From: Xanthomonas sp. F10
Lineage (GTDB): Bacteria > Pseudomonadota > Gammaproteobacteria > Xanthomonadales > Xanthomonadaceae
DNA: 64,000 nt
Assembly (NCBI RefSeq): GCF_014206815.1
Contig: NZ_JACHNP010000001.1
Span: 248,001 to 312,000 of the forward strand
Reading direction: 5' to 3'
The notes under the pieces are model-generated. The model was not told where the DNA came from. It saw nothing but the letters and a program-made list of their open reading frames with translations, and did not search any database. Below are positions 23,980 to 26,900 of this stretch, piece after piece. Positions within the stretch are counted from its first letter, which is position 1. The number at the start of each line of letters is the position of its first letter. The translations under genes were made by a program, and so were the position numbers.

Positions 23980-26900
23980 TCAGCCCACCCACACCCGCGC
24001 GTTGCGGAACATGCGCAGCCACGGCGCCTCGTCCGGCCACTCGGCCGGATGCCAGCTGAGGTTGAGCGAGCGCAACGTGCGTTCCGGATGCGGCATCAGG
24101 ATGGTCACCCGGCCGTCGTCGCTGGTCAGGCCGGTGATGCCGTCGGGCGAGCCGTTCGGGTTCAGTGGGTACTGCGTGGCGACGGCGCCATGGCCGTCGA
24201 CGAAGCGCAGTGCCACGCGCGCGGCGGCCTGGTCCACGGCACTGTCGAATTCGGCGCGGCCTTCGCCGTGCGCCACCGCCACCGGGATCCGCGAGCCGGC
24301 CATGCCGCGCAGGAAGATCGACGGCGATTCCACCACCTCCAGCAGGCTGGTGCGCGCCTCGAACTGCTCGCTGCGGTTGCGCAGGAAGCGCGGCCAGTGC
24401 TCGGCACCAGGGATGATGTCCTTGAGTTGGCTGAGCATCTGGCAGCCGTTGCACACGCCCAGGGCGAAGCTGTCGCTGCGCGCGAAGAACGCGGCGAAGG
24501 CATCGCGCAGCGCCGGCCGCTCGAGGATCGAGGTGGCCCAGCCGCGGCCGGCGCCGAGCACGTCGCCGTAGCTGAAGCCGCCGCAGGCGGCCAGGCCGAC
24601 GAAGTCGGCCAGCTGCACGCGGCCGGCGATCAGGTCGCTCATGTGCACGTCGAAGGCGCGGAACCCGGCGCGCTCGAACGCGTTGGCCATTTCGATCTGG
24701 CCGTTGACGCCCTGCTCGCGCAGGATCGCCACCTTCGGCCGCTGGCCGCTGGCGATGAACGGCGCAGCGATGTCCTCGGCCGGGTCGAAGGCCAGCTTCG
24801 GCTTCAGTCCGGGCGCGGCGAAATCGCGCGCCAACGCGCGCTCCTCGGCGGCGCTGTCGGGGTTGTCGCGCAGCGTCTGCATGGCATGGGTGACCGACCA
24901 CCAGGCATCGAACAGCTCGTCCCAGCGCCATTCGGCCAGGGTCTTGCCGCCCAGGCCCACGCGCACCGCGGCGGCGGTGCTGGGGCGGGCGATGCGCTGC
25001 GCGCATTCGGTCAGCGCATGGCGCTCGATCAGGTCGGCGAACGCGGCGCGGTCTTCCTTGGCCACCTGCACCACCGCGCCCAGTTCCTCGTTGAACAGGC
25101 TGCGGAACGGATCGTCGCCCCAGGCATCGAGGGTGATGTCCAGGCCCTGCCGCGAGGCGAACGCCATCTCGCACAGCGCGGCGAACGCGCCGCCGTCGCT
25201 GCGGTCGTGATAGGCCAGCAGCAAGCCGGCCTCGCGCGCATCGCGGATCAGTTCGAAGAACGCACGCAGCCGCTGCGGATCGTCCAGGTCGGGCACCGCG
25301 CCACCGAACGCCGGCAGCGCGCCATCGCCATGCACCTGCGCCAGCACCGAACCGCCCAGGCGCTGCTTGCCGCCGCCCAGCCCGATCAGCCACAACTCGC
25401 TCTCGGCCTCGCGCGCCAGCAACGGCGTCAGCTGCGCCCGCGCATCGGCCACCGGCGCGAACGCGGAGACGATGAGCGAGACGGGCGAGACGCTTTTGTG
25501 CGTTTCGCTCGCGCCGGGAGTGGGGAGTGGGGATTCGGGATTGGCAGAAGCGCCCTCCGCGCGCGCAGCACCCTCCCCAATCCCCAATCCCGTTCGCTCT
25601 TCGACGGACGCAGGCCGGCCATCCCGAATCCCGGCCACACCCCACTGCGCCTGCATCGACAGCGAGTCCTTGCCCACCGGGATGCTCAGGTCCAGCTGCG
25701 GGCACAGTTCCATGCCCACCGCCTTGACCGCGGCGTACAGGCGTGCGTCCTCGCCGTCGTGGTTGGCCGCGGCCATCCAGTTCGCCGACAGCTTGACCTG
25801 GTCCAGCGCCTGCACCGGCGCCGCGCACAGGTTGGTGATCGCTTCGCCCACCGCCATCCGCGCCGCCGCGGCGGCGTCGAGCAGGGCCAGCGGGGTGCGC
25901 TCGCCGATCGCCATCGCTTCGCCGGCATGGGTGTCGAAGCCGGCCAGGGTGATCGCGCAATCGGCCAGCGGCAGCTGCCAGGGGCCGATCATCTGCTCGC
26001 GCGCGGTCAGGCCGCCGACGCTGCGGTCGCCGATGGTGACCAGGAAACTCTTCGCCGCCACCGTCGGATGCGCCAGCACCCGCAACCCGGCCTCGCGCAG
26101 GTCCAGCGCATCGGTGTCCAGCTCCGGCCAGCGCGGTGCCGGCGGCTGGCGGGCGTCGCGGTGCATCTTCGGCGGCTTGCCGAAGAGCACGTCCATGGGC
26201 AGGTCGATGGGGTGCTGGTCGGGATCCGGGACCCGGGACCCGGGACCCGGAACGGCCAAAGCGGCCGGCTCTTGCTGTTGCGTTTGCTCCTCCCGGGTCC
26301 CGGGTTCCGGGTCCCGGGTCCCGAACGTTCCGTAGCCCACGACGAGCCGTTCCTCGGCGGTCGCCACACCCACAGCGGCAAACGGACAGCGCTCGCGCTC
26401 GCACAGGGCGGCGAATTCGGCCAGGCGCGCCTGCGGCACGCCGAGCACGTAGCGTTCCTGCGATTCGTTGCACCACAGCTGCATCGGCGACAGCGACGGG
26501 TCGTCGCTGGGCACGCGGTCCAGGTCGATGATCCCGCCCACGCCGGAGTCGTGCAGCAGTTCGGGAATGGCGTTGGACAGGCCGCCGGCGCCGACGTCGT
26601 GGAACCAGCGGATCGGGTTGTCCGCGCCCAGCGCCACGCAGCGGTCGATGACCTCCTGCACGCGCCGCTCCATCTCCGGGTTGTCGCGCTGCACGCTGGC
26701 GAAATCCAGGTCCTCGGCGCTGTCGCCGGAGGCCACCGAACTGGCCGCGCCGCCGCCCAGGCCGATCAGCATCGCCGGGCCGCCGAGCACGATCACCGCA
26801 TCGCCGGGCTGCAGCGGGATCTTCTCCACCTGCACGCGGTCGATCGCGCCCAGGCCGCCGGCCAGCATGATCGGCTTGTCGTAGGCGCGGGTCAGGTCCT

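Follow-up and report, generated by a model that had tools for sequence, protein, structure and literature searches.

An in-frame insert in Xanthomonas PurL belongs to a dispersed family of heptamer arrays

Two repeat elements within purL

The purL gene of Xanthomonas sp. F10 contains a palindrome built of GGGACCC units within its reading frame, raising the question of what this repeat is and how it came to lie in an essential gene. The gene is found in the stretch of DNA analyzed here (64 kb, referred to as the window), and contains two elements:

23980-28071, minus strand: purL, phosphoribosylformylglycinamidine synthase (NCBIfam NF003672 at 1942 bits; relative of PDB 1t3t)
26221-26322, minus strand: PurL site 1 element, two-armed GGGACCC (arms 26221-26248 and 26295-26322)
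25516-25591, minus strand: PurL site 2 element, GGGATT/GGGAGT type, after the PurM-like domain

The purL open reading frame extends up to 28191 (28191-23980, minus strand), with a likely start at MIVLEG (base 28071). The left arm at site 1 consists of one GGGATCC followed by three GGGACCC units; the right arm, on the opposite strand, reads two GGGACCC units, one GGAACCC, and a final GGGACCC. The purL frame crosses the element without a stop, confirming the preliminary description of a two-armed, in-frame GGGACCC element in an ORF that is open throughout. The insert was placed there at residues 583-617; a recount from the MIVLEG start gives residues 582-618 (37 residues). Site 1 is located between 1t3t residues 595 and 602, in the stretch linking the first AIRS_C domain to the PurM-like domain, and the site 2 insert aligns between 1t3t residues 794 and 797. 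Folded as RNA, the site 1 element alone is predicted to form a very stable hairpin (-83.6 kcal/mol; z = -8.05 in comparison with 200 shuffled sequences). An Rfam search of 25400-28400 returned four sub-threshold microRNA hairpin matches only, which were read as chance resemblances to the hairpin. AlphaFold2 modeling of a 604-residue PurL fragment, using 44 sequences, gave a mean pLDDT of 41.2, and the model was set aside. Separately, a 222-bp copy of the purL 3' end (23978-24199; 97.3% identical) was noted at 19540-19760, approximately 4.2 kb away, followed by a shorter piece at 86%.

Related elements occur elsewhere in the window:

28123-28278, unstranded: two-armed GGGACCC element in the gap just upstream of purL
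6034-6061, plus strand: single GGGACCC arm between ORFs that we take to be xpsF-like and xpsE-like
37527-37554, plus strand: single GGGACCC arm, in frame in valS (35468-38467, plus strand), encoding a 10-residue peptide
30167-30215, plus strand: seven-unit GGGATTG array of the heptamer family
34790-34899, unstranded: GGGATT-type arm pair of the heptamer family
35350-35449, unstranded: GGGATT-type arm pair of the heptamer family, just upstream of valS
47759-47786, minus strand: GGGATT/GGGAGT-type single arm of the heptamer family

The same element had been reported between genes at 6034 and 28120. Both positions are indeed intergenic, but the first holds a single arm and only the second is two-armed, and the second purL element and the valS arm had been missed. 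Lone GGGACCC heptamers are barely enriched in the window (18 versus 11.6 expected, with 18 or more in 4 of 100 shuffles).

A dispersed family of heptamer arms

The tandem GGGACCC pattern GGGACCCGGGACCCGG has 100 matches genome-wide (49 and 51 on the two strands) and none in the reversed control, and three consecutive GGGANYS units gave 517 matches compared to 0 in the control. The places read comprise the window, 11 GGGACCC loci, and 53 fetched stretches, giving 95 places, a few of them seen twice; this sample is biased toward all listed GGGACCC places and the plus-strand places of part of one contig, because the GGGANYS places were drawn from the first 100 matches listed. They contain 160 arms, 76 with mostly GGGAC units and 84 with other units. 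The commonest arm length is four units (56 of 160), the family mostly has two to four, and mixed-unit arrays account for 10 arms. Neighboring arms less than 250 bases apart form 53 convergent and 15 same-strand pairs and no divergent ones, and both arms are of the same class in 51 of the 53 convergent pairs (shuffle maximum 41). Judged by base frequency, the six positions ahead of an arm's first matched heptamer mostly read [AG][AG][AG]G[CT]C. No core between arms was common to different places (best score 21, against shuffle maxima of 17-22), and therefore the unit that recurs is the arm and not the palindrome as a whole. The unit proposed earlier was the palindromic element; what is shared between places is the arm, and in IcmF a native conserved segment lies between two arms.

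Arrays of the common unit types are stop-free in every frame. A special design for stop-freedom was considered and rejected, because the same holds, in both strands, for 78% of heptamer arrays drawn at random at 70% GC. Whole arm pairs are more open than their shuffles (mean 3.9 versus 2.4 open frames). The figure for random arrays would also suit a tract that is simply an ordinary low-complexity linker of a GC-rich gene and not a repeat insertion, but this explanation can be dismissed with near certainty: it is refuted by the near-exact inverted arms, the genome-wide copies with zero controls, and the presence or absence of the insert at one point among relatives. The in-frame insert of purL belongs to a dispersed Xanthomonas family of heptamer arrays built of GGGANYS units.

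Repeats of this class have been described before. According to the available text of Rehm et al. (2015; PMC4692102), GGGAATC-type G-quadruplex heptamer repeats occur in Xanthomonas and Nostoc; they are dispersed and mostly intergenic, with four units preferred, and form 70 convergent pairs in Xcc and 75 in Xac. Between 7 and 11% at least partly overlap ORFs, and xpsF is marked among the repeat-associated genes. The same text stresses a stable gene context, together with extensive variation in length and sequence between Xcc and Xac. The 160 arms identified here resemble those repeats in having approximately four G-rich seven-base units, in their dispersal, and in their convergent pairing. The published definition, as given there, is (GGGANTN)n with at least two units, at least one of them GGGAATC. 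PurL site 1 falls outside it, as GGGACCC differs at position 6, whereas site 2 of the window fits GGGANTN but contains no GGGAATC. The text of Rehm et al. available to us contains no account of in-frame insertion in named enzymes, of presence and absence, or of genome-wide type replacement.

Rickettsia palindromic elements (RPEs), the parallel drawn in the preliminary description, are 105-146 bp long with 12-bp terminal inverted repeats and occur between genes and in frame in conserved protein genes; the product of an RPE-bearing gmk stays active (Delihas 2007, PMC2229807, from the part available). In-frame insertion in conserved protein genes is likewise seen here in PurL, ValS, and MetH. However, the RPE, compared here by its description, is one conserved element with 12-bp ends, in contrast to heptamer arms with unrelated cores whose type changes in place. 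The parallel is a fair one for behavior and does not establish membership. Coding palindromes are also kept inside working protein genes in Nematomorpha mitochondria (PMC6649704, in the portion available), but there both arms encode conserved residues, whereas the heptamer arms fill variable loops.

Small palindromic GTAG/CGTC REPs, some of them within ORFs, are described in the accessible part of Di Nocera et al. (2013; PMC3733652), with different REPs near the same recB point in two xanthomonads. Reports of such REPs inside genes, including recB of X. campestris and X. oryzae (same source), and the dispersed, palindromic nature of the present family would be consistent with movement of the whole palindrome as a MITE by a REP-associated tyrosine transposase (RAYT) or another transposase. 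This route is improbable. The cores are not common to elements, no GTAG or CGTC end was seen before the heptamer arms, and the sole Y1_Tnp match in the genome, a RAYT-like gene (locus L254), sits with GTAG-type repeats and has no heptamer array within the 3.3 kb read. This gene (1417-1929 of L254, minus strand) has GTAGGAGCGGCTTCAGCCGC repeats on both sides.

In literature searches on this repeat and on in-frame palindromes, only Rehm et al. was found as a study of this repeat; the letters GGGAATC occur once each in the available text of two tandem-repeat typing papers (PMC8002079 and PMC6459536). The repeat class, its convergent pairs, and its intragenic share (Rehm et al. 2015), in-frame palindromes (in Rickettsia), and in-gene REPs elsewhere are already known. 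In the same searches, no account was found in print of the heptamer family in named housekeeping enzymes with presence and absence, nor of an in-place change of heptamer type within a species.

Presence, absence, and type of element among relatives

PurL sequences from relatives were compared at both sites. Among 94 loci read at site 1, 38 have a heptamer element, 47 a 36-nt loop (12 residues), and 9 other lengths; of 96 read at site 2, 39 contain an element, 52 measure 24 nt, and the remaining 5 differ in length from these. Some organisms are counted twice in these rows (for example, L036 and L061), because two collections were used. Left out were L049-L052 and L060 (fragments of two genomes, with site 1 free of heptamers) and L053-L059 (not whole PurL), and site 1 was not among the reads in L078, L115, L134, and L137. 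All but two of the filled site 1 rows (36 of 38) are from Xanthomonas, the others being Stenotrophomonas (L068) and Pseudoxanthomonas (L107). Among Xanthomonas rows with site 1 read, 36 of 38 carry some heptamer element, and L063 and L064 have the short loop. Two of the site 2 loci of other lengths, L065 and L117, resemble heptamer elements that have degenerated or varied; L117, from Pseudoxanthomonas, has GTGATTC-like units, a heptamer variant outside the GGGANYS pattern.

Strict calling dropped six site 1 rows that had been called loosely, on two units (L114, L123, L127, L129, L138, and L140), and these were judged to be chance or unrelated. In L138 and L140, both Lysobacter, an unrelated, repeat-like stretch is in frame at site 1 and encodes the peptide SLLPPAGEGARRADEG. 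It presumably derives from another dispersed repeat. A similar stretch at site 1 of Pseudoxanthomonas sacheonensis purL (about 2340-2520 of L115, which is outside the 94) brings a stop codon, leaving ORFs of 630 and 756 codons; site 2 of this gene holds a GGGAAT heptamer element. Given these unrelated inserts, the loop at site 1 accepts other inserts as well. The same loop in PurL of distant relatives with unrelated codons had been named in advance as evidence against insertion; this was encountered in part, as an unrelated stretch at that point in the two Lysobacter rows and the one Pseudoxanthomonas. The alignment check proposed with it did show the insert to be present or absent at a single point, its flanks being intact, and the proposed genome-wide count yielded the 100 tandem GGGACCC matches against a control of 0, with at least 6 of the 95 places read inside genes.

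A second genome labeled as the same species (G006) was then compared with the window genome. Identity between the purL genes reaches 99.0% in 880 bases upstream of element 1, 97.0% in the 565-base interval separating the elements, and 98.3% in 1300 bases beyond element 2, compared with only 57.9% and 67.4% for the elements themselves. The closest flanks of the site 1 element are 98.9% identical over 94 bases before it and 93% over 100 bases after it, and site 2 of G006 includes GGGAATC. Using 14 stretches of G006, 20 of 88 places were matched by both flanks (80-100% identity), the remainder lying outside these stretches or giving no match. At the 11 matched GGGACCC places (flanks 93-100%), G006 holds a GGGAAT/GGGATT element at 8 and no array, meaning fewer than two GGGANYS units, at 3. 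All nine matched places of other types have an other-type array in G006 too. G006 has 0 tandem GGGACCC matches against 100 in the window genome. In this lineage, GGGACCC at purL has probably taken the place of an earlier GGGAAT or GGGATT type, a direction suggested by the predominance of other types at PurL across the genus. The earlier proposal that an intergenic repeat moved into the gene holds insofar as a dispersed repeat does lie in frame in an essential gene; entry of GGGACCC into an empty purL is not supported, with 36 of 38 Xanthomonas rows carrying a heptamer element at site 1.

Xanthomonas species recombine, and different element types might have been brought in by horizontal exchange of purL segments between species. 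This is very unlikely given the identity to the same-species genome close to the site 1 element (98.9% and 93%) and over the 565 bases (97%); moreover, type differs between flanks of 93-100% identity at eight places, and each would need a short tract of its own.

The places inside genes, at least 6 of 95, are PurL (twice), ValS, MetH (twice), and IcmF, as called from codon-position GC judged by eye, domain matches, and orthologues. The spanning ORFs of L141, L153, L168, and L161, which have no Pfam matches, were taken as non-coding frames; in L165, the Pfam matches of the spanning ORF all lie to one side of the element. In MetH, heptamer units occupy the main point in 17 of 19 same-genus rows, the exceptions being L242 (short loop) and L231 (a stretch without heptamers), and rows from other families have short loops there. 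Some species have a second, shorter array in another MetH loop. In ValS, an array is found at one point in 10 of 19 same-genus rows, the other nine having a different, longer stretch, and rows from other families have a short loop. The ValS array of L206 (G004) is made of GGGACGC units, outside the GGGANYS pattern. Elsewhere in the window ValS, residues 322-357 or thereabouts form a variable stretch of approximately 35 residues in which no heptamers were seen; close relatives differ strongly in it, and others lack it. In IcmF, repeat-like stretches flank a conserved native segment of approximately 32 residues in 14 of 18 genomes, the second stretch being reduced in L279 and L282. The other four, including the same-species genome, have no arms and keep the native segment. 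In most rows, the first IcmF loop is about equally long whether or not it contains repeats; the second has 21 residues in 12 of the 14 with arms and 14, 14, 14, and 19 in the four without.

Concerted change of type and its possible causes

Agreement between places was assessed using a purL tree of 90 sequences with the inserts left out. By loose calling, both PurL sites are of the same type in 29 of 36 doubly filled rows (shuffle mean 13.2, maximum 25), and by strict calling in 27 of 34; such permutation figures overstate independence, because the rows and genomes are related. Placed on the tree, the 34 strict rows indicate at least 17 and at least 15 type changes at the two sites. Among tree-aware pairs, 7.5 were concordant versus 0.3 for GGGAA (median p 0.016), and for GGGAC the corresponding values were 4.9 and 0 (p 0.0625). 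Across 20 genomes (MetH read in 19, with G006 left out), the only ones with a GGGAC type at PurL or MetH are G000, G004, G015, G017, and G019. These five have the highest summed counts of GGGACCC, GGGACCG, and GGGACTC tandems (103, 376, 636, 476, and 259, respectively), the next being 91. The confinement of GGGAC at PurL and MetH to the five richest genomes therefore indicates that the in-gene copies largely evolve in concert with the family. The GGGAC-type PurL rows L065, L073, L095, L107, and L116 (named contigs) come from genomes outside the repertoire count.

There are exceptions. ValS arrays of GGGAC type occur not only in G000, G004, G015, and G017 but in G002 as well, which is outside the top five (count 71); G019 has no ValS array despite being among the five, and that of G018 is mixed. 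Where IcmF has arms, these are GGGAC-like in most genomes, with no fit to the genome-wide repertoire. PurL site 1 arms are of unlike type in L040, L044, L045, L036/L061, and L076, mainly GGGAA on the left and GGGAT on the right.

The reading that we favor, and consider reasonably probable, is that arms spread from copy to copy, with in-gene copies overwritten by the expanding type and in-frame inserts tolerated. Arms of about four GGGANYS units, often in convergent pairs, are situated in intergenic gaps and in linker loops of some large enzymes. As the arrays are stop-free, inserts with a length that is a multiple of three could be translated, and their predicted products are flexible linkers rich in Gly, Pro, Arg, and Glu that may be tolerated. 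The genome comparison shows that the heptamer type at one place changes while its flanks stay, and PurL and MetH show that several places tend toward the same type in each genome. Copying between places, the step we infer, might proceed by ectopic short-tract conversion or by arm-wise transposition onto existing arrays. For the replaced arms, no donor copy came to light, the cores not being common to elements, and neither a target-site duplication nor a responsible enzyme was identified.

Independent drift in place, with slippage homogenizing the units, hairpin template switching homogenizing the arms, and no copying between places, is a less likely account that nonetheless carries some weight. 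It would explain why arms agree in 51 of 53 pairs even around unrelated or native cores, and intermediate-like arrays do exist (the unlike-arm elements at PurL site 1, the mixed ValS array of L203, and the 10 mixed arms of 160); the failure of ValS and IcmF to follow the genome-wide repertoire also speaks for it. However, mixed arrays are a small minority, PurL and MetH types track the repertoire, and drift would not lead one to expect separate loci to arrive jointly at the same new type, as in the difference of 100 versus 0 GGGACCC matches between same-species genomes.

Arms that share just GGGA every seven bases offer little homology for conversion. Template-directed rewriting, in which one sequence sets the heptamer type and arms genome-wide are resynthesized to match while their flanks are untouched, is an unlikely though conceivable process; it would be akin to a change of telomere-repeat type, played out at interstitial sites of a bacterial chromosome. 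If true, it would explain the shared new type at many places and the matching arms around native cores, as well as the exclusively convergent polarity and the absence of a common core.

Repeats within genes are usually taken as frozen accidents, whereas the PurL and MetH loops have changed type many times across the genus. These changes have largely kept pace with those elsewhere in the genome, and the loops provide a natural series for loop tolerance. The two same-species strains, in which type differs at 8 of 11 GGGACCC places, offer a direct route to catching a putative process of short-tract copying.
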